A stretch of DNA of 37,959 nt from a virus: positions 1-37,959 of IMG/VR virus record IMGVR_UViG_3300033048_000145; one strand, written 5' to 3'. Position 1 is the first letter of the stretch; every line of letters starts with the position of its first letter. The notes under the pieces were generated by a model. The model ran no database searches. It saw only the letters and a program-made list of their open reading frames with translations, and was not told the DNA's origin. Of this stretch, positions 380-37,959 are shown one piece after another. The position numbers and the translations under genes were made by a program.

Positions 380-433
380 TGTGGCGCGGCGCTACCTTTG
401 ACACAGATTTGCACTACCTTTGACACTCCAAAC
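380..433. mobile_element. Outer right terminus of a second Mu-like prophage (A)
   Basis: Positions 380-426 are identical over 47 bases to 434-480, the right terminus of prophage B. They contain the same TGTGG start and two CTACCTTTGACAC sites spaced 22 bp apart. Bases 427-433 (TCCAAAC) continue, after a jump over B, into 37337 onward, which resembles B's own sequence at 481-530. The segment is therefore read as the last 54 bp of a related prophage, cut off from the rest of its body by insertion of B. Confidence 0.8.
429..433. repeat. Target-site duplication, left copy (CAAAC)
   Basis: CAAAC directly abuts the TGTGG terminus of prophage B at 434. The same five bases abut the other terminus at 37332-37336. 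Mu-family transposases make 5-bp duplications, so this pair fixes the prophage borders. Confidence 0.88.
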
Positions 434-480
434 TGTGGCGCGGCGCTACCTTTGACACAGATTTGCACTACCTTTGACAC
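434..480. promoter_or_regulatory. Prophage B right end with two transposase-binding-like sites
   Basis: The terminus begins with TG at 434, and the 13-mer CTACCTTTGACAC occurs at 446-458 and 468-480. The spacing is exactly 22 bp, or two helical turns, comparable to the tandem R1/R2 MuA sites of Mu. The same core occurs inverted at the other terminus (37306-37318). Their role as A-protein binding sites is inferred from position and symmetry. Confidence 0.8.
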
Positions 481-586
481 ACCAAATTTGAAAATCTAAC
501 GGTCTGGGGTGGTTTCTGCGGATCGCTTTTGTAGCTTGTCGCAAATATCTTCAATATTTGACGAAGATTATTACAGTAGAGCGGTT
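481..586. other. Right-end non-coding strip with shared junction sequence
   Basis: No gene of its own is supported here. Positions 482-520 match the sequence beyond the other end of B (427-433 joined to 37337-37369) with only a few mismatches. The match includes the last codons of a minus-strand reading frame, which end in T-P-D-R-stop at both places. In A that frame belongs to a full HEPN-like gene. In B it is open for only about 23 codons before it meets stops. It may be the stump of an exchanged cargo gene. Confidence 0.55.
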
Positions 587-1165
587 TTAAGTATTGCGGT
601 GTATTCTGTCGCTTAGGAAATACATCCCAAGTACAGTAGTAGTCAGCATATGGCTGAAAATGAAAAGAAAAATTGCCAGCCCAAACCAACCTACGAAATC
701 TGAGGAACCCCCAAGTAGTTCGCTAAGCTTTCCAGCGATAATTGGCGCTAATATCGTGAATAAAAAAAGAGTAAGAGACGCCATGCTACAATATCCAAAA
801 AGCATTGAAAGGAAATGACGCACTGTCAGATACTTTGCTTTCCACTTGCCTCGATCTAGGATTTGTAGCTCTACGGGTTTTGTCATAGAGAACTTTTCAT
901 CAAAGGAAGCTGTCGCTTGAAACGTTGCAACTGCAGCTAGAGAGGCAATGTAAAATGGAGTAAGTATCGCAAGTAGGTTCGCAATCCCTCCGAGCATCCC
1001 GCCCTTCCCATATATGTTCGGATCGTCACCAAGAAAAAATAAGAGCAACATGATGGCCAACGCCAAAACAGACGGAAAGACAAGGTTGAAGCTTACGCTG
1101 TATTCGTGAGAAATGCGCAAGTAGTTTAGTGTCCTAAGAAATACATGTTTTTCTAGTATTTTCAT
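587..1165 (-). CDS. Four-helix membrane protein, second gene of right-end cargo pair
   Basis: This 192-residue protein of unknown family has four strongly hydrophobic stretches at about residues 26-46, 60-84, 117-145 and 157-184. A roughly 30-residue polar segment between helices 2 and 3 is rich in K, E and D. The N-terminus is short and polar with no signal peptide, so it is probably an inner-membrane protein. Its ATG overlaps the stop of the upstream 313-residue gene (ATGA), so the two are almost certainly translated as a pair. The region is AT-richer than the structural genes, which suggests separate acquisition. A soluble sensor plus membrane effector layout is common in anti-phage pairs, but I do not recognise this family. 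Confidence 0.8.
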   Translation of the reverse strand: MKILEKHVFLRTLNYLRISHEYSVSFNLVFPSVLALAIMLLLFFLGDDPNIYGKGGMLGGIANLLAILTPFYIASLAAVATFQATASFDEKFSMTKPVELQILDRGKWKAKYLTVRHFLSMLFGYCSMASLTLFLFTILAPIIAGKLSELLGGSSDFVGWFGLAIFLFIFSHMLTTTVLGMYFLSDRIHRNT

Positions 1166-2103
1166 TCTCTCGGCAGTGCTGAAATCATTTTTGATACGAG
1201 ATCATCTCGAATTACATCTTCGCACATAGTAAGCGGAATATCAAAATCCGTCATATGCACCTGTGAAATGAAGAAGTTTGACGCGATATCTTGGATGCGA
1301 GTATCAATTTGACTTGTTTTTATTCGCCCGCTCAAATCTTCCAGTACCACTTTTGCGCTGTTTATATTTGTTTGGTCGCGGCCGGTCAGATGTCGCCACA
1401 TATTTTGCAGCGTACTGTTTGCATCCTGCCCAGAGGGCCTCCCGATTATATCCATATGTATATCGGAATACTCTAATACTGGATAAGCTAAATCAGCAAA
1501 TGCGTCTTGTTCCACCTTTGTGGTGACCAAGCGAAGTCCATGTAATTTACCACCACCGTTAAGAATGCCTCCAATAGTTTGGGACTGGTGTCCCCTGATC
1601 TCGACATTGGGGCGATATTTTTTTAATTTCCCAGTGTCATCAAAGGCTATTTGAGTGCTGAAACGTTGCTCGCATAGCTGGTTGAAAAACCAGCTAATAT
1701 TCGATTTGGATAAGATTTCTACATTTTCGAATGTCGCAGGATAACCCAACGCCTGATCAAATCTGGCGTCAATATTAACAATCAGGTGAGCCGAAATAGC
1801 GGGGACTTCCTCTTCGTTTCGCTCTAGGGTTCGTAGCGAATGGTCTTCTTGATTTTCGACGATGTTATCTGGAATTCGGGGATCGGTTATTCGAAATAGA
1901 AGCTTAGCAATATTCCCATCGAATCTTAGGTCGTGCAAAGTTATACATTGCTCTCCCTTCTGAAATGATAGGTTTATATCTTGATTTTTGAGTGTCTGAA
2001 TCTCTGTCAAAAATTGCCGTGCTGTTGGCGCTTGAAAGTTATTTCGATATGTTTTCATCCCTAGTTCACACACAAAACAATACCGTTCAAAATTTGATAG
2101 CAT
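1162..2103 (-). CDS. Soluble protein of unknown function, first gene of right-end cargo pair
   Basis: This 313-residue cytosolic protein has no transmembrane segment or signal peptide and I cannot assign it to a family. Visible features are an early C-F-V-C-E segment (near residue 9), a mixed alpha/beta N-terminal half with the phrase ISAHLIVNI near residue 105, and a charged C-terminal half. The ATG at 2103 is preferred to the TTG one codon upstream because AGGG lies about 8 bases before it. It overlaps the following four-TM gene by ATGA. It sits at the extreme right end of the prophage, the usual place for accessory cargo. The size pattern (about 310 plus 190 residues with four TM) recalls Kiwa, but the gene order is reversed and no DUF4868 signature could be confirmed. 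Confidence 0.78.
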   Translation of the reverse strand: MLSNFERYCFVCELGMKTYRNNFQAPTARQFLTEIQTLKNQDINLSFQKGEQCITLHDLRFDGNIAKLLFRITDPRIPDNIVENQEDHSLRTLERNEEEVPAISAHLIVNIDARFDQALGYPATFENVEILSKSNISWFFNQLCEQRFSTQIAFDDTGKLKKYRPNVEIRGHQSQTIGGILNGGGKLHGLRLVTTKVEQDAFADLAYPVLEYSDIHMDIIGRPSGQDANSTLQNMWRHLTGRDQTNINSAKVVLEDLSGRIKTSQIDTRIQDIASNFFISQVHMTDFDIPLTMCEDVIRDDLVSKMISALPRE

Positions 2104-2226
2104 CAAAAACCCTGCCTATTTATTAATTAATAAGCGCAATACAATTATGTCGAGAGTTCAAAGGCAAGGATTCGTTCCCATCACTTCACCCTCTAACCTC
2201 AATTTTGCTGGGCTTCAGGCATCATC
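2104..2226 (-). promoter_or_regulatory. AT-rich leader and probable promoter of the cargo pair
   Basis: The 120 bases between the YfiM-like gene and the cargo pair include an AT-rich block with TATTAATTAATAA around 2121-2133. This is the right distance upstream of the 2103 start to hold a -10 region. A separate promoter would allow expression during lysogeny. No clear -35 box could be fixed. Confidence 0.35.
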
Positions 2227-2451: not shown

Positions 2452-2514
2452 TCACGGTTCCTTCCATGCATTGTTAAATCGCGCGTCTAGCGCCTATTTT
2501 GGCTCTGACTGTCT

Positions 2515-2886: not shown

Positions 2887-2887
2887 G

Positions 2888-3370: not shown

Positions 3371-3380
3371 TTTAATCTCC

Positions 3381-4624: not shown

Positions 4625-4636
4625 GTCTCTTGGACC

Positions 4637-6964: not shown

Positions 6965-6992
6965 ACAGCCGTGATACGGCGCAACAGGATGC

Positions 6993-7016
6993 AAAAAAGG
7001 CGGACAACTGTCCGCC
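6993..7016 (-). terminator. Hairpin with T-run, copy 1 of 4
   Basis: On the minus strand this reads GGCGGACA-GT-TGTCCGCC followed by six T. It lies between V and W, inside the tail operon, so it may attenuate rather than end transcription. The same stem recurs at 12505, 18666 and 27564. Confidence 0.7.
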
Positions 7017-9241: not shown

Positions 9242-11833
9242 CTAAAACGCCTTCCTGTCTTCGCGGGCTTCTTCATCATCAATCAAGCGTTTAATATCGC
9301 GCTTATGCTCATTCAGTAATTGTTTGAACGAGGCTTGGGTTTCCGGTGTGCCGCCAGTGATGGTGATATTGCCATAGGTTACATTGATGCCACCGCGTGA
9401 CGGCGACCTGCCACCGCCTGATTTGGCGATGCTCGATGATGTGCCGGCAGACCGGGCTTGATCCGCACGGGGCAAGATGGACTGTGCCGCACTGGATGGA
9501 ATGGCGGTGCTAGCGATGGCCATATCGGACATCACAGGGGATGCCGCCGCCATTGTTGCTGCCGCTGCAATGCGCATGGCTTTGACCATTGGTTCGCCGC
9601 GTATGGACATGGCGATGGTTTCGCCAAACTTCAGGCGGTGGATATCTGACAGCGGGCCGGTTTTTGCGGGGGATGATGGCAGGTGGTCACGCACTTGCTG
9701 GGTGGCGGCACGGGTGGCCTCAATCACGGCCCCTGTGCCTTGGCGGATGCCCGCTGCAAGAGTTTTCATCAGGGCGACACCCTGATTTGTGAAATCGGTT
9801 CGATCCAACAAAATTGAGATCGCGCCAACCGCTGTTGCAACACCTTTCAAAGTGGCATCAGCGGCTTTGGTAATTACAGGAAATTGCTTGGTCAATTTGT
9901 CAGCCGCAACAACGGCTTCCAACAATGTTTTAGGGTCTTCAATTAACTTGACCGGTTGCGTATGGCTCGCTCTGAATTGTTCCATTTTTGCCAAGACGGC
10001 CAACTGCTTTTCGCTCATTTGGGAACGATCAAGCGCGCCGGATTTGACCATAGATTGCTTTGTGATTTGCTCAATGTCGATCGGTGGCTTGCTTTCAAAA
10101 AGGGCAAACGCATCCTTTACCCAATTGGGCATCTCAGGGATCATATCCCAAATGCCGGACGCCGCATTGCCAAACCAGCTGGTGACAGATGTCCACGCGC
10201 TGGTGAGGGCATCCAGTGAGATCAGAGCGCCCCAATCAATGCCGGTCATGCCAGCGAGTGCCGTTCCCCACTTTGAAAAGTCAGGCAACCAATCACCGGC
10301 AAATATGGCTTTGATGCCAGCCCATGCCGCGCTGGCCAAATCCTTGGCGGTTTCTAGCGGTTGTGAAATTGCATTGGCAATGCCAGCCCAGTTTTGGATC
10401 ACCATGCCCAGTGGCGTCCATGCAAAGGCTGTTTTCATCCAATCCCAAACTACGGTCGCAGCGGATTTAATGCCATCCCAAATGGCTTTGAAATAAGGCG
10501 CAATCGCATCCCAGTTTTTATAGATCAGGTAAACCCCACCAGCCACAGCAGCAATCGCCAGCATCACAGGATTGGCCATCAGAGCGGCGGACAGCAGCCC
10601 AAGCCCTGTTGCGATCTGCACCAATCCTGCCGCTGTGGCGATCAGCGTTGGCGCAAAAACAATGGCAGCTAAGATTTTTGACAGGTTTTTCCAGCCCCCA
10701 ACATATTCAGCGGCGGTGGACAGATAGCCCGTTAGGGTTTGGATCACCTCTTTGGTTCCAACCGCAAATTTCCAGATATTTGTGAGGGCTGTTTGAATGG
10801 TTTTTCCAATACTGGTCGCCCATTCTTGCAAGCGCCCATCGGCCTCCATGGCGTTGATGGTATCAAGGACCATTCGCAATTTGTCTTTCATCCAATCAAA
10901 CAGGCCTGCATCCATGATCATTAACTGGAACTTTGACCATTGATCAGACATGTTGCCCATCATGCTATCCCAAGTGGCAGACAGGCGAGCCATTGACCCA
11001 CCAAACCTATCGCCCATAATTTTCATAAGGTTTTGCTGGATGGCCATTTTGTCGTTGGCTTTAACGGCTATAGTTGCGGCTTCACCAGCCGCATTGGTGT
11101 AGGCATAGGTAATCATGCCCTTGGTTTTACTGGCCGTGATGGCGAAGGCCTTAAGGCGCTCGTTCTCCCCCATAACAGCATCCGCCATCGCCTCAATAGA
11201 CTGCATGAGCGGCGTTCCCATAGCCGCCGACGTATCCCCCAAAGTTTCCAGAAGTCCTTGCGTCGGGTCAAGACCATAAGCGCGCAATTGCACGAATGCA
11301 CCCGTCACCTGATCAAGCTCATAAGGTGTTTTGACCGCGAAATTTTGAACCCATTTCATGGCTTTCTCGGCTTTTTCTGCGGAGCCTTCCGTGGTCTCCA
11401 GAACGGTTTGAAAGCGCTCAAATTCAGAAGCGGTACCTACCAGATTAGCCGCCGCCAAGGCTGCACCGCCATAGGCCGCAAGGGCTATGCCAGCACCTAC
11501 GGCCACGCCCTTTGCAACACGCTTGCCACCAGCCCCGATTTCCTTGAACCCTTTGCGCCCCAAGGCAACGGTTTTATCATGCAACCGCTTAACGGCGCGC
11601 CCTGCCTTGTCAGCACCGGCGACAACCGTGCCAAATGCTTTCTTTGAACTGCGACCAACTTTGCCCATTGCCCGCTCTGTGGCCTTTAAGGCCCGCTGTG
11701 TTTTAGCATTCGCCCGTGTGGCTTTGGCGGCATTGCCTTGCATCGCCGCCGCCATTTTCTTTTCGGTGGCCATGATTTTACCCATGGTCTTTGTCGCCTT
11801 ATCGACGGCGGAAAAGATCATGGAAAAATTCAT
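9242..11833 (-). CDS. Tail tape measure protein (gpT-like)
   Basis: This 863-residue protein is the longest tail gene. Residues 1-100 are a lysine/alanine-rich helical region. Hydrophobic segments follow at about residues 110-130 and again near 385-440. There is a central tape-measure domain with F-E-R-F-Q-T-V-L-E-T-T-E-G-S near residue 140, and W-D-x-I motifs. The protein sets tail length and is ejected into the cell ahead of DNA. It lies directly downstream of the frameshifted chaperone pair that normally coats it. The ATG is 69 bases after the E' stop. Confidence 0.92.
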   Translation of the reverse strand: MNFSMIFSAVDKATKTMGKIMATEKKMAAAMQGNAAKATRANAKTQRALKATERAMGKVGRSSKKAFGTVVAGADKAGRAVKRLHDKTVALGRKGFKEIGAGGKRVAKGVAVGAGIALAAYGGAALAAANLVGTASEFERFQTVLETTEGSAEKAEKAMKWVQNFAVKTPYELDQVTGAFVQLRAYGLDPTQGLLETLGDTSAAMGTPLMQSIEAMADAVMGENERLKAFAITASKTKGMITYAYTNAAGEAATIAVKANDKMAIQQNLMKIMGDRFGGSMARLSATWDSMMGNMSDQWSKFQLMIMDAGLFDWMKDKLRMVLDTINAMEADGRLQEWATSIGKTIQTALTNIWKFAVGTKEVIQTLTGYLSTAAEYVGGWKNLSKILAAIVFAPTLIATAAGLVQIATGLGLLSAALMANPVMLAIAAVAGGVYLIYKNWDAIAPYFKAIWDGIKSAATVVWDWMKTAFAWTPLGMVIQNWAGIANAISQPLETAKDLASAAWAGIKAIFAGDWLPDFSKWGTALAGMTGIDWGALISLDALTSAWTSVTSWFGNAASGIWDMIPEMPNWVKDAFALFESKPPIDIEQITKQSMVKSGALDRSQMSEKQLAVLAKMEQFRASHTQPVKLIEDPKTLLEAVVAADKLTKQFPVITKAADATLKGVATAVGAISILLDRTDFTNQGVALMKTLAAGIRQGTGAVIEATRAATQQVRDHLPSSPAKTGPLSDIHRLKFGETIAMSIRGEPMVKAMRIAAAATMAAASPVMSDMAIASTAIPSSAAQSILPRADQARSAGTSSSIAKSGGGRSPSRGGINVTYGNITITGGTPETQASFKQLLNEHKRDIKRLIDDEEAREDRKAF

Positions 11834-13091: not shown

Positions 13092-14339
13092 TTACGCTGC
13101 CAACGAAAGCGCGCCTGCGATGAATTTGGTGTCGACATAGGAATGCGTGCTCAAGCGCTCCATGACGGTTGTCGGGTGGCATTCGAGTTTGTAATGGAAG
13201 TGGCCATCAGCGATTTCGGCAGGCGTGCTTCTCTCGCGGTCAAACCGATATGTGCCACCGAATAGAACCCCGTCACCGGTCTTTTTGCGCAAGAAAGCAT
13301 TGACGGCCTCTTCAAGAGCCTCGACATTTTGAGGGGTGCCTAAGCGGTCAACATACTGCATGGAAAAGAAGGTGATGGCGTCATGCAGCTGGTCCAAAAT
13401 ACGGCGCGCATTGATGAAATTTTCAACGTGGCTGGATGTCGGGAACGCGGCAGACCGGTTGCCATACGAGCGAAAACCGGTGCCAAAGCTGCGCATACAG
13501 GTGACGATGCCCGCTTCATTCAAGAAGTTGGTGTCATTGGCGGTGTCGGATGGATAGAAATTGATATCCGTTTCAATGCCGATCACGCCTGCGATTTCAC
13601 GGTTGGATGCAGAGTGATGATAGCCTTGCTCCAAATCAGTTTGGATCATCAGACCCGCAAGGCGCTGCGATAGTGGCTCAAGACGTTCATCGCCGGTGAT
13701 GGTGTCAGCCACTTTGACATGGGGATAGGTCAGGATTGTGCGTGCACTGGATGTGTTGGCGTTCACAACGCCACTGGTGCCGCGCGCTTCAACCGCCTGT
13801 TGCTTGGTCAGGCCAATCGGCAGATCGCAAATTGCCATGGCATTCAGCATGTGGGCCATGGCGTCCATTTCCACCCGAACGCCCGGCACACTGGATTGTG
13901 CCGACAAGATGATTTTGGGGAAATAACCAAACTTATTGTAGCAGGTTTTTGCACCGGACAACCCCGTGGCAATGCCGCTGGCATCAACACCGCCAATCAA
14001 ATCAGCAGCGGTTACCGCGCCGACATTTGCATGGCTGTCAGGATCATAAACATTGTTCACAATGATTGTGCCACCAGCGCCATGATCAAAGATCGCATCA
14101 AGCGCTTGCGGGATTGTGAAGCCAACGGTTTGCGGGCCGAACGCCGCCGCCGCTTCTTCACGGGTGCGCACAATGATCCGTTTGTTCACAAAAGCCGCAC
14201 GTTTTGCAGGCGTGTCATGAACGTCACCAATCGGGGCGGTGCCGTTGATATAGGTAACGGCAGATTTAACATCCCGAACGACAGAAACACCGTCTTTGTG
14301 TTCAATGACTTCGGGGCCGTGATGGAAATTTGCAGACAT
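13092..14339 (-). CDS. Tail sheath protein (gpFI-like)
   Basis: This 415-residue protein resembles the P2 FI sheath. It has the N-terminal H-H-G-P-E-V-I-E segment, a V-K-S-A-V-T-Y-I-N-G-T-A-P region near residue 24, a conserved central part with G-Y-F-P-K-I-I-L near 138 and F-R-S-Y-G-N-R-S-A near 292, and a C-terminal R-I-L-D-Q-L-H domain. It forms the contractile sheath. AAGGAG lies upstream of the ATG. Finding an FI-type sheath behind Mu-type head genes marks the tail as a P2-type module. Confidence 0.9.
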   Translation of the reverse strand: MSANFHHGPEVIEHKDGVSVVRDVKSAVTYINGTAPIGDVHDTPAKRAAFVNKRIIVRTREEAAAAFGPQTVGFTIPQALDAIFDHGAGGTIIVNNVYDPDSHANVGAVTAADLIGGVDASGIATGLSGAKTCYNKFGYFPKIILSAQSSVPGVRVEMDAMAHMLNAMAICDLPIGLTKQQAVEARGTSGVVNANTSSARTILTYPHVKVADTITGDERLEPLSQRLAGLMIQTDLEQGYHHSASNREIAGVIGIETDINFYPSDTANDTNFLNEAGIVTCMRSFGTGFRSYGNRSAAFPTSSHVENFINARRILDQLHDAITFFSMQYVDRLGTPQNVEALEEAVNAFLRKKTGDGVLFGGTYRFDRERSTPAEIADGHFHYKLECHPTTVMERLSTHSYVDTKFIAGALSLAA

Positions 14340-20344: not shown

Positions 20345-20379
20345 AAAACCGGTGGATCATCCCAGCCGGTTTTTTTATT
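20345..20379. terminator. Bidirectional terminator-like hairpin after portal/F gene
   Basis: AAAACCGG at 20345-20352 pairs with CCGGTTTT at 20366-20373, with a T-run to 20376 on the plus strand and TTTT on the minus strand. It overlaps or touches the end of the portal/F gene (20375) and would separate it from the DUF4406 insert. Confidence 0.65.
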
Positions 20380-28213: not shown

Positions 28214-28488
28214 CAGCCCAGCACCTCAAACATGTCAGGGGTGTTTAGGCATCGGGGTGTTGGTGCTTCCTGATTATCAGTAAACTGATATCCGGTGCAG
28301 GTTGGGCGATTATCAACATAGCACCATTCCAACGGATATTCATCGTCGTAAGCATCAAAATTCATAGCCGCACCATGGGTTGGGCAACCTTCCTCCTGAT
28401 CCCACCATTGGCAAGACGCACACCATGCCGCGAAAAAGGTATCACCTTCGGTCGCATTGGATGGGCTATATGGCAGATCGCCACTCAT
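28213..28488 (-). CDS. Cysteine-rich hypothetical protein
   Basis: This 91-residue acidic protein has six cysteines: C-A-S-C near residue 23, G-C-P-T-H near residue 34, C-Y near 56, C-T near 64 and C near 80. The spacing C-x2-C-x8-C-x2-H suggests a small zinc-binding fold. It is tightly overlapped on both sides within the early operon. No family is recognised. Small acidic cysteine-rich early proteins often act on host proteins, but no target can be named. Confidence 0.65.
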   Translation of the reverse strand: MSGDLPYSPSNATEGDTFFAAWCASCQWWDQEEGCPTHGAAMNFDAYDDEYPLEWCYVDNRPTCTGYQFTDNQEAPTPRCLNTPDMFEVLG

Positions 28489-28919
28489 TTGCCCTTCACC
28501 TTCCCACGTTTCTCCATGGATTTCAGGGTTTCGATGATCGGCGATGCCTGATCGTATGTGAGGAAATCAGGATCATCTATCCGCGCCCCGCGCTTTTCGG
28601 TTTGGGCCGCAACAAAGCTGCGCAGGGCTTTTTTCGAGCCATCATCAATTACACCCAATTTGGCACATGCCGACCAGAGCGCGTGGATCAGGCGAACATA
28701 TTTCTTGCTTGAAAACCCAGCTTTATTACCCACTGATTTACCACCGCGTTTGATTTTAAAGCCCTTGGCCTTGAAATCATCCACAACGGCCAACCGCTGG
28801 GCTTCGGACATGGCGCGAAGTGACCGTTTTCCGGTCACCCGCTCCAAGGCGTCACGATAGGTTTCATCATCAAGCCCCAAGTCTTTCTTGGCGATGTTGA
28901 TCACGGCAAAGGTGTTCAT
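28485..28919 (-). CDS. GemA-like regulator (Mu gp16, DUF1018)
   Basis: This 144-residue protein has the family pattern I-N-I-A-K-K-D-L-G-L-D-D-E-T-Y-R-D-A-L-E near residue 6, then A-M-S-E-A-Q-R near 33, and Y-V-R-L-I-H-A-L-W near residue 74. GemA of Mu alters host gene expression and DNA topology early in infection. A much longer reading frame extends upstream, but the ATG encoding M-N-T-F is chosen because it overlaps the stop of the small upstream gene (ATGA) and the upstream extension covers two other small genes. Confidence 0.88.
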   Translation of the reverse strand: MNTFAVINIAKKDLGLDDETYRDALERVTGKRSLRAMSEAQRLAVVDDFKAKGFKIKRGGKSVGNKAGFSSKKYVRLIHALWSACAKLGVIDDGSKKALRSFVAAQTEKRGARIDDPDFLTYDQASPIIETLKSMEKRGKVKGK

Positions 28920-29080
28920 TCGGCCTCTCCTTTTTTCCACCCGTCCCAAGCGGCCATCAATTTCGCAAGGCCGAATGACATTAGCCAGACAGCGGCTTCG
29001 ATCCCGCACCAACCAATGCGCAAACCGGCACCGGAACATGTAGCAATCGTTGCAATTTTCATCATCAATTCCGGCGTCAT
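28916..29080 (-). CDS. Hypothetical small protein with one hydrophobic segment
   Basis: This 54-residue protein is not recognised. It has a moderately hydrophobic stretch of about residues 8-38 with two cysteines and a W-rich lysine-containing end. GGGAAAGGTGG precedes the ATG, and the ends overlap the neighbouring genes (ATGA on both sides), which supports translation. Confidence 0.6.
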   Translation of the reverse strand: MTPELMMKIATIATCSGAGLRIGWCGIEAAVWLMSFGLAKLMAAWDGWKKGEAE

Positions 29081-29208
29081 TTTTCCACCTTTCCCTGACA
29101 GGCCAATTGGTGCGCGGCCAAGCCCTTTTGCCCGCGCACAGCTTTGTTGCAATTCGGACAAACTGTTTTCTTGCCCTTGCTATCCATTTTTGTGGTTCTC
29201 GCACCCAT
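29077..29208 (-). CDS. Mini C2HC zinc-finger-like protein (43 residues)
   Basis: Between DUF3164 and the next small gene, the minus strand encodes 43 residues starting M-G-A-R-T-T-K. They contain C-P-N-C near residue 17, then H and C five residues apart near residues 33-37 (H-Q-L-A-C). The pattern C-x2-C-x12-H-x3-C plus many lysines suggests a tiny nucleic-acid-binding zinc finger. Its stop overlaps the next ATG (ATGA). It starts two bases after the DUF3164 stop, so it sits perfectly in the operon. Confidence 0.72.
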   Translation of the reverse strand: MGARTTKMDSKGKKTVCPNCNKAVRGQKGLAAHQLACQGKVEK

Positions 29209-30667: not shown

Positions 30668-31242
30668 GGCATCACCTCGCGAGAGTTATGGTCAAACACC
30701 TCGTTTTTCTTCCCGCGATATGTCGGGGCAATCTCACCCAAATCATCAAACAGGCGATACCGTTTAAATCCATTGGATGATTGGGCGTAGCCGCGTTCAC
30801 GGGTTGGCATGTCAAAAAGTATTTTTGCTTTTCTCAATGCCAGACAATAACGCCGGATATTCACATGATCTTGTTTGGTGGGATCATCAGAGGCGACAGC
30901 CACCAGATCATTGATTGAAAACACGACCATGATGCGCATGGCTGACCATGCTTTTTGGCGCAGGGTGTTCTTGAACGGAGTGCGGCCCTTGCCTGTGTCT
31001 GGCCCCATCGGGCCTGATTTGATCACAACACCTTGCGCTTTGGCCTCAATCCCCTTTTCAGTCAGGGCGAACACACCGTTTTCAAGGCGTGCCAAATAAC
31101 CACGGTTCACCAAATACCCAGCGGTTTTGATGGTTTCGTGATAGCTGATGTCACTCTGCTCACTAAGGGCGGTCAGCTCCAATGCGACGCCATCTTCAAA
31201 CAAAGCAAATATCGCATTCTGGTTCTTTGCTAAACCACTCAT
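30655..31242 (-). CDS. Winged-helix-like early protein
   Basis: This 195-residue protein of unknown family begins with a probable winged-helix fold (residues 15-70: L-T-A-L-S-E-Q-S-D-I-S-Y-H-E-T-I-K-T-A-G-Y-L-V-N-R-G-Y-L then V-F-A-L-T-E-K-G). A second similar unit with R-I-M-V-V-F-S-I-N-D-L occurs near residue 105. This suggests a two-domain DNA-binding protein. It lies right after the MuB-like gene with a 4-nt overlap, so a role in transposition or its control is possible. Confidence 0.68.
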   Translation of the reverse strand: MSGLAKNQNAIFALFEDGVALELTALSEQSDISYHETIKTAGYLVNRGYLARLENGVFALTEKGIEAKAQGVVIKSGPMGPDTGKGRTPFKNTLRQKAWSAMRIMVVFSINDLVAVASDDPTKQDHVNIRRYCLALRKAKILFDMPTRERGYAQSSNGFKRYRLFDDLGEIAPTYRGKKNEVFDHNSREVMPCHA

Positions 31243-32006
31243 ACCGTCACCGGCACATTGATGGGCTGACCCGTGGCGCGATCATTGACCAACAGCTGAC
31301 CTGACATGTCCGCCATTGTTAAGCCGCCTTCAGCGGGCGCATTGCGCCGCCCAAAGCGTTCAATGATTGCCATGGCTTCCTTTATTTCGCGGTTCATACC
31401 ACCGGTAATTTTGTGAACAAACCCCACCAGATCATCAGCAACCGGAACTTCACAAAGCTCGTCAAAAAACATGCGAACATCTTCAAAGGTTGCCGGGTGG
31501 AAATTAACATACTGCGAAATCCGCGATGCGATTTGCGGGAACCGAACAAGGTTGTTTCTGATCTTGCCCATGCCAACCAGAATGACTGGCATTTCGATCA
31601 TGTCCGACAGATCACGGATGGTTTCCATGATCCTTGCGTTTGATGAAATGTGATCGGCTTCATCAATGATCAGCGCGAACGTGTTGCCAGAATGAATGGT
31701 CGATGCTTGGCGCTGTACAAGGGTTTTAAGCGCCAGTTGATATTTTTTCTCAAACGAATGTGGCGGTTGCTGGCGCATTTCTTGCAACAACTCATTCATC
31801 ATCCATGCGGGTTTCCATTCCTTTTTTGCCCGCAAATATATAGCCTGATTTTTAATGGCGAACCGCGACAGTGACGTGGTTTTCCCCAAACCGGCCACCC
31901 CGTCCACAACAACCAAACAGGCTTCACTTGCGCCACGACGTTTCAAAGCAGTCATTGCCGCTTCTAGTGCCAATACGTTTGATGTTTTTACAAACTTCGT
32001 TCTCAT
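31239..32006 (-). CDS. Transposition ATPase (MuB-like AAA+)
   Basis: This 255-residue AAA+ ATPase has Walker A G-V-A-G-L-G-K-T-T at residues 36-44 and Walker B A-L-I-I-D-E-A-D at 111-118. A sensor-like R-I-S-Q-Y segment and a C-terminal winged region follow. MuB-type proteins polymerise on DNA, choose targets, activate the transposase and give target immunity. The ATG encoding M-R-T-K-F has GAGGAGA upstream. A longer frame runs into the transposase gene and is not needed. Confidence 0.9.
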   Translation of the reverse strand: MRTKFVKTSNVLALEAAMTALKRRGASEACLVVVDGVAGLGKTTSLSRFAIKNQAIYLRAKKEWKPAWMMNELLQEMRQQPPHSFEKKYQLALKTLVQRQASTIHSGNTFALIIDEADHISSNARIMETIRDLSDMIEMPVILVGMGKIRNNLVRFPQIASRISQYVNFHPATFEDVRMFFDELCEVPVADDLVGFVHKITGGMNREIKEAMAIIERFGRRNAPAEGGLTMADMSGQLLVNDRATGQPINVPVTV

Positions 32007-32041
32007 TTTTGCTCTCCTCTTTTTCCCGTGGTATTTTTTTG

Positions 32042-34162
32042 TTATTTGTATTGCTGAATTATGGTGGTTAGCCGCTCGACATCGACGCCTTGATCTTTGA
32101 ACAATTGCCGCTCCGATGGATCGGACAGGCACTCCCTCAAGATTTCACAGCGGCCCTCCTGAAGATCATCGGGGTTTTCGACAATCCATAAGGCCAGCTC
32201 TAAATCGGTGCCAAATTTGGTTACCGTTCCGACAACTGACGCTGATGCTTGATTTATGCTGGTGGTATATTCGGCATCCACAAAGTCAGGTTTTGGTTCA
32301 TTGTTCAGCGGCGTCATTGGAACCGATACCTGACCTTCAAGAAACCTATGTGGGCGCAACTCTTCGTCAATTTCCACAATCTTGTCTGTGATCCGTTTCT
32401 TGCGAGATTTGGCGCGGTTCTCGTCGGCAAGGCGTTGCATTGTGACCGGAACGTATCGTTCAGTATTTCCGGCAAATTTGGCAACACATATCAGGCGACC
32501 TGCTTCTTCTTCGCCATCGACAATATCAATTTCGCGCACCCAAACATGGTTGGCATCATGAATGTCGTAACCAACCAGAACATAATCGCCGTTAAACTCT
32601 TCCAGTGCGATGTGGAAATATTCATTAGTCCGGTATTCGATCAAGGCGCGGCGCGTTTTGCGCTTCACGTAGGGCCGGAACAGATCGTTGCTTTCCGATT
32701 TTGTCACAACGACAGGTTCAAATCCGTTATCGACGTGCTGCTGCCAGTATTGATCTGGTGACATGCGGTTTGGCAAAGACGAATGCGATTTGGCATTATA
32801 AACCTCAATCGCCATGTTGCAGCGCTGCATGAAATCATCGAAAGAGGGCAGGGACGCGCTTGCGCCCAATTCCCGCTGTTCTTTGCGTGTCACCTTGAAT
32901 GACTTCTGCCGGGCTTGGCGGTCCATTTCTGGATTAACATAGGTGGCGAATTCACGCGCTAGGGGGTTCCAGACCGACCCGTGAAAGCGCTCAATAATGC
33001 CACGCGCCTGACTGTTTTGGGGCAAGGAGTGATGCTTGGTGATCCCCAATCGGCCCATGAGGCCTGTCAACTGCGCATCAAGGCGTTTGTTCTTAAACCC
33101 TGACCCGCGATCCACATAAAAGATTGCAGGCACACCGAACACCTCGCAAGAATGGCGCAGGGCATCTACAACCCCTTCGGCATTTTCGGCCAAGCCAACA
33201 GAAAACCCGACGCACTTGCGGGTTGCCACATCCACCACGGCGGTGATTTCAGGGCGGAAAGGTCGTCCATGGATTGGGTGCTGAATTTCAGCATCGAAGG
33301 TTTTGCCATCGGATGTGTAAACACATGTTGGCAGCAAGTCGCCGGTTGATCTGGTCACATAGGCTTGACGGGATTTCAGGGTCAGTGAGCCTTCACGGCC
33401 ACGGTGCTTTTCTACATTCCCCAGCTTGCCGATCAGGTAGCGTATTTTTGTATAGGTCACAGGCTCGTTTGGCCGTTTGTCTGAACTCATATAAGCATTC
33501 ATTGCCTCTGTGATGCAGGGCTTTTGGGGGCGGGCGTAATGTTTCAGAAAGTCCCAGAACCACGCGGGGATATCTGCCCGCTCTTTGGTGGCCTTTGGGG
33601 CCAGTGCCCCTATGCCTGTGCCATCCCGAAACCGGAACCAGCGCAATAATGTGCTGCGCGAAATAACCCGTGATCCGCCTTTGCGATCATTGGCGGCGGA
33701 TACTGTTTCGATCTCCAACCCAAAATCAACGGTGCCTGTGATAAACAGATCAACAGCCTGACTGCGCGAATATCCACCATCAACGCGCACGTTCTCTATC
33801 GCCAACAACACCGTTGAACGGGCATTCATCACCAGTCGTTGGCGGGCCGTCAGGATCGTGGTGTCCAGCGCCTCACGCTTGACTATATCAACCGCGCAAT
33901 CTTCTTTGGTGTTCGCCACAGTGACCTCGCGACCCATCTCACTTCTAAGGGCGCGCTGCATTTGTAGCGGCAATAATGAAATGTGGTATTCCATCCCCCC
34001 GCCACCCTTGGCCCCTTGCTGTTTGCGCGCCAGCTTTTGGTTATCGGCCCAGCCTTCGTTTTTTGCACGATTTCTGACACCCCGCTCGCTATGCGGAATA
34101 TCCGACTGATGCAGCCGTTTCCCAGCATCGGCGATTTCACGGGGTGTCAGGAAATGCTGCAT
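32042..34162 (-). CDS. DDE transposase (MuA-like)
   Basis: This 706-residue protein is the phage transposase. The N-terminal 70 residues form a Mu-type helix-turn-helix (F-L-T-P-R-E-I-A-D-A-G then R-N-R-A-K-N-E-G-W). The catalytic core has D285 (T-S-D-G-K), D351 (Y-V-D-R-G-S-G) and E391 (I-I-E-R-F-H-G). The D-D distance of 66 is as in MuA. A mu-transposase C-terminal beta-barrel region follows at about 480-560. It joins phage ends to target DNA in integration and lytic replication. It overlaps the ParB-like gene by TAATG. Confidence 0.94.
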   Translation of the reverse strand: MQHFLTPREIADAGKRLHQSDIPHSERGVRNRAKNEGWADNQKLARKQQGAKGGGGMEYHISLLPLQMQRALRSEMGREVTVANTKEDCAVDIVKREALDTTILTARQRLVMNARSTVLLAIENVRVDGGYSRSQAVDLFITGTVDFGLEIETVSAANDRKGGSRVISRSTLLRWFRFRDGTGIGALAPKATKERADIPAWFWDFLKHYARPQKPCITEAMNAYMSSDKRPNEPVTYTKIRYLIGKLGNVEKHRGREGSLTLKSRQAYVTRSTGDLLPTCVYTSDGKTFDAEIQHPIHGRPFRPEITAVVDVATRKCVGFSVGLAENAEGVVDALRHSCEVFGVPAIFYVDRGSGFKNKRLDAQLTGLMGRLGITKHHSLPQNSQARGIIERFHGSVWNPLAREFATYVNPEMDRQARQKSFKVTRKEQRELGASASLPSFDDFMQRCNMAIEVYNAKSHSSLPNRMSPDQYWQQHVDNGFEPVVVTKSESNDLFRPYVKRKTRRALIEYRTNEYFHIALEEFNGDYVLVGYDIHDANHVWVREIDIVDGEEEAGRLICVAKFAGNTERYVPVTMQRLADENRAKSRKKRITDKIVEIDEELRPHRFLEGQVSVPMTPLNNEPKPDFVDAEYTTSINQASASVVGTVTKFGTDLELALWIVENPDDLQEGRCEILRECLSDPSERQLFKDQGVDVERLTTIIQQYK

Positions 34163-35013
34163 TACTTGACCCCACCGATCCGGCCTTCAACCCAAGCCAT
34201 GATCCGTGCCTCATGTGACAGTAAAAGCGCGCCAAAATCTTCATCGCTAAATGAATTAAACACCCTGTCAGCCGCCGCAAATTGCTTTTGATGTGTTGTT
34301 TCCAGTAGCTTCCCTGTCGCAAGGATCAACGCATCCGGCACATTCATGGCGCGAACAGGTTTCCCATTGGTTGGGAACATCATTTCCAATGCCTTGGCCT
34401 GCACCGTGGGCTTTTCCTTGGCCATCGCCATTAGGCCCGCCTGATGATCGGCCAGCCATGTGCCTTTGATGATGGATATTGCACCGGGGGCTAGGCCGGT
34501 CCACATGGCAACGGCCTTGGTGATTGAACTGTCTGACAGGCCCGTTTTTTCGGCGGTGTCAGTGCTAAACGGAACAATTCCGTTTAGCTTTTCACGCCCC
34601 TGTTCGGTTTGCTTATCACCACCCTTTTTGGTTTCAGGATACTTGGCCTCATAAGCCTGCTTCAAATCAAACAAATGTTGGGCGCGATCCAAGGCGGTCA
34701 ACTCATGCCGACCGATGTTTTCCATGATCTCTAGAACCTTGGCATCGGCCACCGTTTCAGCCTTACTCCAGCTGGCCGCAATGTGCGTTTCGCCGTTGAT
34801 CACATGGGCAGCAAGCCGGTGCGCACCCGCCACTAAGAATGGCCCGTCAGCACTCTGCCAAATGGTGATTGGGTTCAGCATTTCACTGGCCTTGAACATC
34901 GCGGCCAAAGCTTGCGCCCAGCCCTCGTCAACATCCCGCGAGCGGCCTTCAATAAGGATGCTGGAAATTTCGATCATTTCGGTTTTCGGTGTGGTGTTTT
35001 CTTTGCCTATCAT
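34162..35013 (-). CDS. ParB-like N-terminal domain protein
   Basis: This 283-residue protein has a ParB/Srx-type N-terminal domain: I-E-I-S-S-I-L-I-E-G-R-S-R near residue 14, L-N-P-I-T-I-W near residue 46, and the L-V-A-G-A-H-R-L-A-A motif near residue 60, followed by M-E-N-I-G-R-H-E-L. The C-terminal half contains a helix-turn-helix-like G-L-S-D-S-S-I-T-K-A. Similar genes precede the transposase in Mu-like phages of Rhodobacterales (recalled from RcapMu). It may help replication or regulate early genes. Confidence 0.85.
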   Translation of the reverse strand: MIGKENTTPKTEMIEISSILIEGRSRDVDEGWAQALAAMFKASEMLNPITIWQSADGPFLVAGAHRLAAHVINGETHIAASWSKAETVADAKVLEIMENIGRHELTALDRAQHLFDLKQAYEAKYPETKKGGDKQTEQGREKLNGIVPFSTDTAEKTGLSDSSITKAVAMWTGLAPGAISIIKGTWLADHQAGLMAMAKEKPTVQAKALEMMFPTNGKPVRAMNVPDALILATGKLLETTHQKQFAAADRVFNSFSDEDFGALLLSHEARIMAWVEGRIGGVK

Positions 35014-35479: not shown

Positions 35480-35751
35480 GCTGCCGCTCCTGACTTAAGG
35501 CGGTTCACATGTTGATCCATGCGCTTGCGATAGGTCATTTCAACCACATCACGGCCCGCTGCATCTATGATCCGTTTCAACAAAGCCTTGCCTGTGTCGC
35601 CGCCTGTCAGGCCGAAGGTTGCTTGCCGGGCGCTGGTTTGGTGCACCTTGTTATCTGTGCACCATGCACCAAAGGTGGTGCCCTGTGATCGGAACGCGCC
35701 AACGATTACCTCCTGCAAGATAACTCCGGGCTGGAAAACAGTTTGTTTCAT
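35476..35751 (-). CDS. Small DNA-binding regulator, Ner-position (BcepMu gp16-like)
   Basis: This 91-residue basic protein is transcribed divergently from the repressor, the position of Ner in Mu. It contains V-G-A-F-R-S-Q-G-T-T-F-G-A-W-C near residue 17, then K-V-H-Q-T-S-A-R-Q-A-T-F-G-L-T-G-G, resembling the helix-turn-helix of BcepMu gp16-type proteins. It would turn down early or repressor transcription. The ATG at 35751 has AAGAGG upstream and follows the putative early promoter. The family call is moderate. Confidence 0.7.
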   Translation of the reverse strand: MKQTVFQPGVILQEVIVGAFRSQGTTFGAWCTDNKVHQTSARQATFGLTGGDTGKALLKRIIDAAGRDVVEMTYRKRMDQHVNRLKSGAAA

Positions 35752-35790
35752 GTTAAACCTCTTGTGTTTTGTTGTTATGCTCTGGCAACA

Positions 35791-35820
35791 TGTATACGAC
35801 CAAATGCTCACATCAGTCAA
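35791..35820 (-). promoter_or_regulatory. Putative early promoter (leftward)
   Basis: On the minus strand, TTGACT (35820-35815) and TATACA (35796-35791) are separated by 18 bases and lie 40 bases upstream of the first early gene. The match to sigma-70 boxes is 5/6 and 4/6. An operator-like repeat lies within it. Confidence 0.6.
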
Positions 35821-35842
35821 GAAGGATACGTCCAAATGCTCG
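35794..35842. promoter_or_regulatory. Two operator-like direct repeats at the lytic/lysogenic switch
   Basis: ATACGaCCAAATGCTCaC at 35794-35811 and ATACGtCCAAATGCTCgC at 35826-35843 are 32 bp apart, three helical turns. The first overlaps the early promoter and the second overlaps the repressor start codon. A third CAAATGCTCA occurs inside the repressor gene at about 36038-36047. They are probably repressor-binding sites. Confidence 0.6.
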
Positions 35843-36492
35843 CAAAAGACCGGCTACAAAAGGCAATTTCTGATAGTGGGCTGAATTTAAAGGATTTTTC
35901 CGTTCGTTCGGGGGTAAATTACCGCACGCTTCAGCACTATATTGCGGGTGAAAGGAAGATCGGGACTAAATTTCTTGCGCAAATAAGCGAGCAAATGGGC
36001 ATATCTGCATCGTGGGTGCTGGCTGGAATTGGCGAGCAAATGCTCATTGGTGGTCGCGCGGGCATGGAAGATACTGAAGATTTTATACAAATAAAACGCT
36101 ACACAGTCGAAGCTTCAGCAGGTCATGGCGCACAAGTTTCATGCACTGATGGAACCGGCTATTATGCATTCAATCAACGGTGGTTGGATCGGCGCGGGCT
36201 GAATGCTAATTCGCTATCTGTTATTTCCGTGCGTGGCGATAGTATGGAGCCGGACCTATACGAAAACGATCTGCTCTTGCTGGATCACGCCCAAACAGAC
36301 CTGAAGGACAGTCACATATATGCAGTGCAGTTTTCGGATGGTCTCTATGTCAAACGCATCCAGCACCTGCCAGAAGGCCAGATACATCTGATCAGCCGCA
36401 ACACCAATTACCCGCCAATCACGGTAAAGCATCCCGTGGCTGATGGTGTGCAAATCATCGGGCGTGTTGTGGCATCTATGCATGAATGGTAG
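35836..36492 (+). CDS. Phage repressor (XRE helix-turn-helix + S24/LexA-like)
   Basis: This 218-residue protein has an N-terminal helix-turn-helix (about residues 17-40: L-K-D-F-S-V-R-S-G-V-N-Y-R-T-L-Q-H-Y). The C-terminal S24 domain has G-D-S-M-E-P (Ser136) and Y-V-K-R-I (Lys173), the usual Ser-Lys dyad. An A-G pair at about 95-96 is a possible self-cleavage site, so the switch may be DNA-damage responsive. ATG at 35836 has AAGAAGGA upstream, and the longer frame from 35743 would cross the operators. It keeps the early promoter off in the lysogen. Confidence 0.88.
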   Translation: MLAKDRLQKAISDSGLNLKDFSVRSGVNYRTLQHYIAGERKIGTKFLAQISEQMGISASWVLAGIGEQMLIGGRAGMEDTEDFIQIKRYTVEASAGHGAQVSCTDGTGYYAFNQRWLDRRGLNANSLSVISVRGDSMEPDLYENDLLLLDHAQTDLKDSHIYAVQFSDGLYVKRIQHLPEGQIHLISRNTNYPPITVKHPVADGVQIIGRVVASMHEW

Positions 36493-36528
36493 ACGTTAAT
36501 TTCAACCGTACATTTAGAGAGTAGCATT

Positions 36529-36852
36529 ATGAAATACCTTATCGCCGCTGCATTATTGGCCATGACCTCAACAACTGGAATGGCAACCGAGTTGGAGCCT
36601 TGGCAAATTAAAGGTGCTGAACTGGCCAAGGCTGAACCAACAATCTACGATGCATATTGGAACCAAAACATCAGCCTGTGGCTCTCCATGGTTGACGATG
36701 GCTCCAGTCGAAATGGATATGCTGAAGTTGTTTGCCGTTTACTAACGGATGCAGGGCGACCCCAAGGGGAATTTGTTGCCATCAGAGTTTACTCTTATAG
36801 CTCAATTCGGAATGGAGAGCTTAATCAGATTGGCAAAGCGATCTGTCAGTGA
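36529..36852 (+). CDS. Small secreted protein of the lysogeny module
   Basis: This 107-residue protein has a clear signal peptide (M-K-Y-L-I-A-A-A-L-L-A-M-T-S-T-T-G-M-A, cleavage after about residue 19). The mature part of about 88 residues has two cysteines that may form a disulfide. It follows the repressor on the same strand and is followed by a terminator, so it is probably expressed in the lysogen. It may be a lysogenic-conversion protein in the periplasm, for example blocking superinfection. No family was recognised. Confidence 0.75.
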   Translation: MKYLIAAALLAMTSTTGMATELEPWQIKGAELAKAEPTIYDAYWNQNISLWLSMVDDGSSRNGYAEVVCRLLTDAGRPQGEFVAIRVYSYSSIRNGELNQIGKAICQ

Positions 36853-36860
36853 GTAAGACA

Positions 36861-36904
36861 ACCGTTAGGGGCAAGGGTGGCATTGCACCATTCTAACGGT
36901 TTTG
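36861..36904 (+). terminator. Terminator of the lysogeny transcript
   Basis: ACCGTTAG at 36861-36868 pairs with CTAACGGT at 36893-36900. GGTG/CACC can add an inner stem, and TTT follows. It lies 9 bases after the stop of the secreted protein gene. Confidence 0.65.
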
Positions 36905-36995
36905 CAGAATGCCGACCTTAAACGCCATTTGATGAAACTGTCGGATACCCAAGTAATTGCTTTAACTGACTTTATTTAAGGTCGGCACTACTTTT

Positions 36996-37025
36996 CCAAG
37001 GTCGGCATCTGTGTGCCGACCTTGG
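36996..37025. repeat. Perfect 12-bp inverted repeat
   Basis: CCAAGGTCGGCA and its exact complement TGCCGACCTTGG are separated by six bases (TCTGTG). There is no T-run on either strand, so it is more likely a protein-binding site than a terminator. Confidence 0.7.
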
Positions 37026-37033
37026 CACATTTG

Positions 37034-37054
37034 ATTTGCACCACCTTTGGCACA
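37034..37054. promoter_or_regulatory. Internal transposase-site-like sequence
   Basis: ATTTGCACCACCTTTGGCACA matches ATTTGCACTACCTTTGACACA of the right end with two differences. It corresponds in position to an internal L-site of Mu, about 280 bp from the left terminus. Confidence 0.6.
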
Positions 37055-37292
37055 GGTTCGCACTATCTGGGCGATCAACTGGCCCACTCTAAGTAGCCAC
37101 ATAGCCATATGAACAAGGTTTCAATGGCTTCTTACCTCATACACCACAATCACACCATTAACGGCGCTTTTTGGTGCCGACCTGTGCCAAGTGTGGTGTC
37201 AAACCGTCGTGTTTTCACGTTGTTTGTGCAAACCCAGTTATCACGCGAATTTTGCGTTGCGCCTTATAATAAAGGCCTTTTCCTCATTTTCT

Positions 37293-37331
37293 TGTGTCAA
37301 AGCGTTGTGTCAAAGGTATCACCCCCCCACA
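37293..37331. promoter_or_regulatory. Prophage B left terminus with transposase-site-like repeats
   Basis: Read inward from 37331, the complement begins TGTGG and reaches TACCTTTGACACA at 37318-37306. This matches the right terminus at 22 of 26 positions in inverted orientation. A second CTTTGACACA lies 13 bp further in (37302-37293). It is followed outside by CAAAC. Confidence 0.82.
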
Positions 37332-37336
37332 CAAAC
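37332..37336. repeat. Target-site duplication, right copy (CAAAC)
   Basis: CAAAC directly follows the left terminus of prophage B and equals 429-433. The next bases, TTGAAATTCTAACGG, continue prophage A's interrupted right end. Confidence 0.88.
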
Positions 37337-37344
37337 TTGAAATT

Positions 37345-37959
37345 CTAACGGTCTGGGGTGGCTTCTGCCAAATACTGCATGAGGGATCGCGCATCACCAA
37401 ATATCCGCTTTGCATCCTGTTCATCGTATTCGGAGTGAGAATGCATTGCTTGGTTGCGGTAAGCATTTTTAATGAAACGAAGGTGCGTACCGGCTTCGGC
37501 AGCCTTTTGGGCTGCACTGTCACCGTCAGTTTTCTTATTGATTTTGCGTAGCGCGTTTTCGATGCCGATCAAGGTTTGGTTCCAATTTTCAGAGTGTACG
37601 ACATCCACGCTCAGAGCTAAGGCCCGCAAACCGATCTCCAGCACTCGCATCGTGTGCATCACACAGGCGGTCCAGAGACCAAAGGACAAGCACTTGCCCG
37701 CTTCTGAAATATCAAATTCTGCATGAGGAAACGCATCCACGACATCAGCCCCGAATAGGGTGTCAGCGTCGTCGTGCTTTTCATCTACATTGCTGGAGAG
37801 GACATAAAGCTGTCGGCTCTCGGCTTCGGTAACAGTAACTTTTAGCAGCTGTTCTAGTGAGGTGGTAACCGTTTGGAGATTGTGCGGGTGGGACCAATGT
37901 TCTCCAGCAAGAGCTTTGATACAGTCTTTATGCGCGGTTACTGCAAACTTTTCGGACAC
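37345..37959 (-). CDS. HEPN-like cargo protein of prophage A (5' end outside window)
   Basis: At least 204 residues are encoded, and the frame is open to the window edge with only a GTG there, so the true start may lie further upstream. The C-terminal half is helical, with F-G-L-W-T-A-C-V-M-H-T-M-R-V-L-E-I-G-L-R near residue 93. The motif R-N-Q-A-M-H near residue 169 has the R-x4-H spacing of HEPN RNase domains. Such domains occur in toxins, abortive-infection and RNA-degrading defence proteins. The gene ends about 60 bp inside prophage A's reconstructed right end, the same cargo position as the two-gene cassette in B. The HEPN call is by motif only. Confidence 0.6.
   Translation of the reverse strand: MSEKFAVTAHKDCIKALAGEHWSHPHNLQTVTTSLEQLLKVTVTEAESRQLYVLSSNVDEKHDDADTLFGADVVDAFPHAEFDISEAGKCLSFGLWTACVMHTMRVLEIGLRALALSVDVVHSENWNQTLIGIENALRKINKKTDGDSAAQKAAEAGTHLRFIKNAYRNQAMHSHSEYDEQDAKRIFGDARSLMQYLAEATPDR

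Follow-up and report, generated by a model that had tools for sequence, protein, structure and literature searches.

A Mu-like prophage nested within a related element's right end: probable oriented insertion downstream of tRNA genes

Introduction

How does a Mu-like prophage come to lie 54 bp inside the end of a related element? The question is raised by the IMG/VR virus record IMGVR_UViG_3300033048_000145, whose whole length of 37,959 nucleotides (hereafter "the window") was analyzed. The record opens in host DNA, where a tRNA-Phe gene is followed by the right end of one element (A) and, inserted within it, by a full-length Mu-like prophage (B). Phage Mu, with its TGT ends, its 5-bp duplication and its near-random targets, is the standard example of near-random insertion and of an element's avoidance of its own ends. 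The original prediction, made from the window alone, had suggested that A and B differ in immunity specificity, or else that immunity failed. The answer proposed here is a different one: phages of B's branch often insert 17–130 bp beyond the 3′ end of a tRNA gene and turn their right end towards it, and the nesting of B in A is probably the reuse of one such zone. The tRNA bias is a statistical pattern in lysogens, and the likely reason for B's site is the neighboring tRNA-Phe, not the end of A.

Prophage B interrupts the right end of element A

From position 380, the window carries a right end of the Mu type, TGTGGCGCGGCG, in which the CTACCTTTGACAC repeat occurs twice, and a second copy of this end begins at 434, 54 bp further on (coordinates are collected in Table 1). 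The exact 47-bp repeat on which the original prediction was built (380–426 against 434–480) is indeed there, and when both strands of the window were searched the 47-mer had exact copies only at 380 and 434, both on the + strand. The left end of B, read as the reverse complement from 37331, starts with TGTGGGGGGGTGATACCTTTGACACAACGCTTTGACAC, and the TTTGACAC site is common to this left end and to both right ends. TGT...ACA ends, repeated transposase-type sites and a 5-bp duplication are all present in B, the duplication being the CAAAC that had been predicted on both sides of the prophage. The predicted collinearity upon removal of B was recovered as well: 427–433 joined to 37337 onward equals B 482–519 at 35 of 38 positions without a gap, after which the two sequences diverge into different genes. 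The right end of A is thereby that of B's family, identical to B's over 47 bp with both presumed transposase sites included, and a difference in immunity specificity between A and B is therefore unsupported as far as these sites are concerned.

A second genome provides the empty site that had been called for. In a transposase-alignment scan of 84,980 species genomes, which yielded 11 relatives, a 100% identical MuA was found on contig NVTS01000013.1 (C68, G001) of the metagenome-assembled genome Marinosulfonomonas sp. NORP109. From its position 2102, this contig matches window 1–356 with 0 mismatches and is thus the same locus, and its copy of B differs from that of the window by 9 mismatches in 36,703 compared bases (49 N positions were set aside, and the aligned pieces did not cover about 116 N-rich bases or the final 30 bases of B). 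Here, however, the right end of B follows CTTAC (window 354–358) and its left end precedes CTTACAAGAATT; A's right end starts 26 bp further on and is not interrupted, the end of A and its TCCAAACTTGAAATTC junction being read intact from 39385. CTTAC stands on both sides of the NORP109 prophage as a second target duplication of its own. The two insertion sites are 75 bp apart and the orientation is the same, so that B has entered this locus twice in one orientation. That B is nested within a related element's right end is strongly supported by the target duplication, by the site found empty in a second genome and by the shared subterminal sequence.

Could the arrangement have been built by the assembler? 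The contigs are metagenomic, the 47-bp repeat is present twice and the NORP109 contig contains Ns. A misassembly through the repeat is nevertheless very improbable, since the window's B junctions, TCCAAAC/TGTGG and CCACA/CAAAC, both lie outside the shared 47 bp and carry matching 5-bp duplications, while the CTTAC/TGTGG junction of NORP109 is free of Ns. The N run before the left junction in NORP109 agrees at 36 of 36 positions, one gap being allowed, with a consensus of the tRNA flank and the left end of B (26 when ungapped; the best of 2,000 other window segments reached 32, with a mean of 23), and a B-free allele was therefore probably merged into this assembly. In the tape measure gene (window 10636–10751), NORP109 has about 117 N-rich bases, as if two variants of B had been merged.

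Immunity may have failed for B in A. As a full account, leaky immunity combined with chance is hardly credible: Pseudomonas phage Ab30 does put 0.4% of its insertions into its own copies, according to PMC5977238, yet two random insertions in the same orientation within 80 bp have a roughly estimated chance of about 2–3e-5 for a genome of 2.7–4 Mb. Moreover, the excerpt of PMC2837660 shows Mu avoiding its own ends, in vitro insertions being absent at the MuA sites near them, and the end domains of Ab30 look sparse in insertions in the available part of PMC5977238, where the right end is unclear owing to an NsiI artefact.

What element A is

The visible part of A amounts to 0.7 kb only. The NORP109 contig reaches just 100 bp beyond position 37959, and both contigs stop 0.6–0.7 kb inside A. 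Its right-end gene gives a match to PF05168 (HEPN) that is below the cut-off (E 0.0041) and one to phrog_32483 (3.6e-9), and has an in-frame stop upstream in NORP109. No homologues of this gene were found in the phages searched, none by peptide patterns in the viral contigs searched, and none in the fetched loci except at the same locus. The short motif CTAACG, at window 37345–37352, recurs just inside the family left ends in L177, L183 and L184.

The original prediction took A for a prophage. It may instead be a solo end, a remnant or a short cargo element, which we rate at somewhat under an even chance and which is compatible with repeated use of a zone after the tRNA. A single family transposase and a single tail sheath of this type occur in the NORP109 bin, whose size is given as 2.7 Mb, and both are B's, although the bin may be incomplete, or the core of A may have collapsed into that of B. 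Reduced forms have parallels: locus G876 has two right ends, with about 43 kb inside that has no match to 30 B proteins, and G230 carries both family ends 1,277 bp apart (L214, 4355–5631, between a right and a left end, with no clear target duplication). This last stretch holds three small genes with a signal-like start and a cysteine-rich tail, two of which are weakly defensin- or short-toxin-like, below the cut-offs.

tRNA genes outside some of the right ends

The tRNA-Phe lies 38 bp from the start of A, 92 bp from that of B in the window and 17 bp from that of B in NORP109. Is this proximity peculiar to one locus? Members of B's family have a left end of the type TGTAGGGGGG and a right end of the type TGTGGCGCG, each with transposase-type sites, and the 5-bp flanks of the two ends match in G003, G006, G007, G008, G009 and G017, and at 4 of 5 positions in G005. 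The DNA outside the right ends was scanned for tRNA genes at 29 loci besides the window/NORP109 locus (the record of Rhizobium phage RR1-B, L004, with a 4-base flank, is one of the 30 loci considered below and is not in this count). A tRNA stands at the right end in nine of the 29, and all nine have the 3′ end towards the phage. Eight lie within 130 bp: tRNA-Arg(CCG) at 84 bp in G005, 65 bp in G006 and 50 bp in G876; tRNA-Arg(CCT) at 99 bp in G105; tRNA-Met at 45 bp in G159, 118 bp in G008 and 128 bp in G301; and tRNA-Phe at 40 bp in Loktanella (G002). The ninth is a tRNA-Lys, 443 bp from the second end of G105. In the flanks of the 29 loci, this makes eight tRNAs within 130 bp (3,766 bases) against one beyond (62,531 bases; p ~1e-9).

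The opposite side is bare. No tRNA was found at the left ends in the flank available (0/23, 20 of these flanks having at least 130 bases), nor at 17 relative loci, which is explained by their showing the left-end side, the tRNA sitting at the other end. In G005, G006, G008 and the Loktanella prophage both ends are known, and the tRNA is at the right and none is at the left. The Loktanella ends are on two contigs, and belong to one element since the duplication GTTCG is common to both. That genome has two near-full transposase matches and one short one.

Sister phages also keep to the same tRNA species. The transposase tree groups the window with Loktanella, and G005 with G006, each pair being fully supported; the first pair shares tRNA-Phe, the second tRNA-Arg(CCG). 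Over 77 bases, G005, G006 and G876 have one and the same Arg(CCG) gene sequence, and the tRNA-Phe genes of the window and Loktanella agree at 70 of 75 positions. These facts bear on survivorship, that is, on random insertion followed by the persistence of lysogens at harmless sites after tRNA genes. All the data do come from standing prophages, as such an account would have it. We judge it improbable all the same: harmless sites are numerous, and survivorship predicts neither that nine of nine tRNAs face the right end (p 0.004, two-sided) nor that sisters share a tRNA.

Folding flanks and the shape of the target

A rival with more to recommend it holds that DNA shape or folding draws the transposition complex, tRNA genes being one example of hairpin-forming or AT-rich DNA. 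Among the 20 right flanks that lack a tRNA, five fold strongly over their last 120 bases (L131, L187, L191, L214 and L215; z −3.3 to −7.8), compared with none of 21 left flanks and none of 25 stretches further out (p 0.02 and 0.013, with the cut at z −3 set after the values were seen). A tRNA or a hairpin is found in 13 of 29 right flanks vs 0 of 21 left ones (p 2e-4), and the other 15 of the 20 tRNA-less right flanks do not fold strongly either. Positions 342–379 of the window are 79% AT, and the hotspots of Ab30 lie 55–61 bp from a palindromic BIME motif in the accessible part of PMC5977238. In that same part, though, AT-rich DNA is cold for Ab30 and the pictured hotspot has no orientation bias, and a preference for shape would not by itself lead sister phages to the same tRNA species. 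We regard this explanation as rather unlikely, if clearly ahead of survivorship. Directly outside their right ends, L131 and L215 share the same palindrome around ATTCCTGTGACAAGCACAGGAAT, while the flanks of L187 and L191 have another hairpin repeat. A search with Rfam of 18 of the 20 tRNA-less loci gave one match, to the P10 small RNA, inside the phage side of L191.

Several observations weigh against repeated, oriented use of a zone after tRNA genes. No tRNA was found in the available flank of 20 of the 29 right-end loci (the shortest flanks being 126 and 175 bases), and two of the loci with stacked right ends described below, G017 and G321, have none in 809 and 3,000 bases. The distance to the tRNA varies from 17 to 128 bp, unlike the fixed point used by Tn7, and no selector gene was identified. 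The tRNA pattern came to light during re-checking, so the test was unplanned, and the comparison of right with left ends by tRNA alone gives only p 0.015. Finally, the NORP109 assembly is a merged one, and Ns occur at one of its junctions.

A possible landing zone

How might such a zone work? A factor or DNA feature at the tRNA could hold the transposition complex in one orientation, as a Tn7-like selector does. The MuB-type filament or another phage factor might be seeded at a tRNA gene or hairpin, with the right end facing it, and the spread of 17–128 bp is more easily reconciled with a filament or loop than with contact at a fixed point. Candidates for the factor would be the ParB-like protein encoded beside MuA and the small early genes. 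A tRNA-proximal zone of this kind would stay open to siblings with the same transposase sites. A lies 38 bp after tRNA-Phe, and B then entered the same zone twice, 17 bp after the tRNA and outside A in NORP109, 92 bp after it and 54 bp inside A in the window. A and B thus probably met through their common use of one landing zone, and the nesting would be a by-product of a zone that is open to siblings.

A more far-reaching version is conceivable, to which we give about half the credence of the plain zone: a lineage-specific, oriented and TniQ-free selector for tRNA genes (Phe, Arg-CCG, Met), at which phages that pile up nest, leave with a borrowed outer end, change site specificity and gain cargo. 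The following two sections concern the traces that such events might leave.

Stacked right ends

With a right-end profile (ends of at least 22 bits starting at profile position 1–3, in a tally that precedes the last five loci), 38 distinct ends were collected, four at the window/NORP109 locus and 34 at 30 loci. At three of the 30 loci, right ends that point the same way are stacked in twos or threes: G017 (IMG/VR 2855507120), with ends 68 bp apart; G321 (IMG/VR 2721755529), with spacings of 113 and 62 bp, cut 2.9 kb inside; and G876, with ends 66 bp apart, at its tRNA-Arg(CCG). By chance, and on rough assumptions, about 0.005 second ends would be expected. By source, second ends accompanied two of six ends in viral contigs (7 hits, of which L188 was unmatched by the profile and its row dropped), none of ten profile-scored ends in 297 Rhizobiaceae genomes (where some hits judged by eye to be chance were left out), strictly none of five in 39 genomes of G009's genus, one of four in 148 genomes of G003's genus and none of one in 394 genomes of Loktanella's family. 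B's own right end, searched as an exact pattern in the viral contigs, was not found there, although near-identical records may be missing from that set. MuA alone as a query gave no match; alignments as queries did find relatives.

G009 adds a decayed right end (12.5 bits), 897 bp inside the one in use. Its alignment score is 42, compared with 29 at the best separate place in about 5 kb and 30 for the best of 300 shuffles, and between the decayed and the used end lies an open reading frame with a weak match to MtlR. The inner-end search had 3 kb inside the end available in 17 of 29 loci and less in 12 (L216, with 95 bases, has too few for a second end); L220 (27 bits) is in the stack and tRNA counts, not in this search, and nothing reached 11 bits in the reversed control. 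Ends can also meet differently: at L137 7403–7496 (G024), two sibling left ends, both of the CTTCTGG type, lie head to head 93 bp apart.

The stacked right ends may be fossils of repeated landing-zone use. Together with the two insertions of B at one end of A, they argue against a strong depletion of insertions near ends. Might sibling right ends even attract insertion, in a reversal of Mu target immunity? B did insert twice beside A's end, stacks in one orientation exist at three of 30 loci with a decayed one in addition, and the flanks available for the G017 and G321 stacks lack a tRNA. The tRNA zone suffices, however, for the pile-ups of the window/NORP109 locus and of G876, and 26 or 27 of the 30 right-end loci are unstacked, so that attraction of this kind seems to us about as improbable as survivorship.

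G017 and an apparent change of site specificity

Repeated use of a zone would leave stacked right ends, and a nested phage might later come to use the outer one. In G017, the left and the outer right ends share the duplication GGGAC. Sites of the TTTGGCGCA and TTTGGCACA kinds stand in the outer end, and TTTGTCACA in the left one; G006 and G007 have a similar pairing. The inner right end belongs to the CTTCTGG type and matches the right end of L189 at 45 of 47 positions, whereas the outer end matches both L189 and its own inner neighbor at 36 of 47. It thus seems that G017 has changed specificity, its old right end being buried inside one of the new type.

The transposase of G017 is 0.70–1.00 identical, per 20 residues, to its CTTCTGG relatives L095 and L014, barring two stretches: the last residues (0.40 with L014) and residues 141–180 (0.42–0.53), where the TTTGTC relative L093 is closer (0.72–0.74). 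Within the rows listed, this MuA stretch reads RT[IVA][QK]RW in five of five transposases with TTTGTC sites and [AS]T[LIV]Y[DE]W in nine of nine with CTTCTGG or CTTCTAG sites; B has STLLRW here. The motif, at about residues 160–176, co-varies with the end site (L013, L092, L093, L015 and L027 versus L095, L014, L089, L009, L034, L090, L091, L064 and L004; L065, a CTTCTGG-type row of the transposase tree, is absent from this alignment). As it does so in several branches, it is a possible recognition code, as judged from the aligned sequences. Replacement of the whole left arm of G017 was considered and rejected, since its first 1.66 kb shares 91% identity with L095, a CTTCTGG relative. The change of specificity would follow from right-end capture, the departure of a nested phage with the resident's outer end, as the one phage-length case of G017 suggests.

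Gene content of prophage B

B adds a new phage to the RcapMu/RR1-B branch of the Mu-like group. Transcribed mostly leftward, it encodes MuA- and MuB-type proteins, an S24 repressor, ParB-like and GemA proteins, terminase, portal, protease, major head protein, sheath, tape measure and baseplate, and thus has the genes of a phage head and a contractile tail. A Pfam scan that covered part of B's open reading frames revealed no TniQ. Behind the right end of B, two genes form a PDC-M53A/B candidate system; the gene of A in that slot is a different one.

Table 1. Features of the window and their positions.
Feature	Position	Strand	Basis
tRNA-Phe (GAA) in host DNA, 3′ end towards A and B	267–341	+	ARAGORN
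CTTAC, target site of B in NORP109 (on both sides of B there)	354–358		
TTAGG, presumed target duplication of A; other copy outside the record	375–379		inferred from sequence
Right end of A, terminal 54 bp; presumed transposase sites 392–404 and 414–426	380–433	+	380–426 = end of B
CAAAC target duplication, right-end side of B	429–433		
Prophage B, full-length Mu-like phage	434–37331	-	
Right end of B; presumed transposase sites 446–458 and 468–480	434–480	+	
PDC-M53B candidate anti-phage gene, right-end cargo of B	587–1165	-	PADLOC 4.6e-35
PDC-M53A candidate anti-phage gene, right-end cargo of B	1162–2106	-	PADLOC 5.5e-25
Tail sheath	13092–14339	-	phrog_23 1.8e-80
Portal/minor head protein and large terminase (two genes)	20375–24924	-	phrog_113, phrog_220, phrog_38
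GemA-like protein	28485–29204	-	PF06252 1e-29
MuB-type AAA ATPase, DNA transposition protein	31239–32132	-	phrog_296 1e-44; PF13401 and TniB above cut-off
MuA-type DDE transposase	32042–34162	-	HTH_Tnp_Mu_1 and Mu-transpos_C above cut-off, rve below; phrog_310 7.3e-140
ParB-like protein	34162–35013	-	phrog_3264 3.1e-39; no Pfam match at E 0.1
S24/HTH repressor	35743–36492	+	
Left end of B with TTTGACAC sites	37295–37331	-	sequence and left-end profile
CAAAC target duplication, left-end side of B	37332–37336		
Subterminal sequence of A, collinear with B 488–519	37337–37368	+	uninterrupted in NORP109
Right-end gene of A, 204 amino acids from GTG at 37959	37345–37959	-	weak HEPN match

Comparison with known systems

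The closest other transposase found, at 66%, is that of a prophage of Loktanella sp. 3ANDIMAR09 (L088, L225), which has the same end layout and lies 40 bp after a tRNA-Phe. It differs from B in having TTTGAGAC instead of TTTGACAC sites, and there is one right end in L225. Rhizobium phage RR1-B (JF974315) has a MuA 46% identical to that of B and a sheath gene; its right end, TGTGGCGCGCCGC, with two CTTCTGGACA sites, is of another site type, and its relatives L187 and L191 stand beside the hairpin repeat, with no tRNA in the 687 and 175 bases available. In Rhodobacter phage RcapMu (JN190960), the MuA is 44% identical, the ends are TGTAGGGGGGG and TGTAGCGCGCG (the right one was not scored by the right-end profile), the sites, unlike those of B, are CTTCCGGAC, and no sheath is annotated.

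Tn7-like elements, including those that home to tRNA genes, insert in one orientation just after a fixed gene, and several may share a site. They do so with a dedicated selector, TnsD or TniQ, at a near-fixed distance. B's family resembles them in its oriented insertion beside a target gene, nine of nine tRNAs facing the right end, and differs from them in its variable distance and in the lack of a TniQ among the proteins scanned.

With phage Mu, B has MuA and MuB in common. Its family departs from near-random target choice by its tRNA bias, though such choice is no strict defining feature of Mu-like phages: Ab30, also Mu-like, has hotspots at a set distance from palindromic repeats, and differs from B's family in showing no orientation bias at the hotspot pictured in the part of PMC5977238 at hand, where tRNA genes are not mentioned. 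Neither tRNA-proximal insertion nor stacked right ends were found for Mu-like phages when the titles and abstracts of the open-access literature were searched with a few terms. If the pattern described here is true, it would represent a second, independent means by which a transposon with a MuA/MuB-type machine picks a harmless site. An open landing zone would explain the nesting of phage in phage, and stacked ends such as those of G017 give a starting point for asking how a transposase can change specificity together with its two ends.

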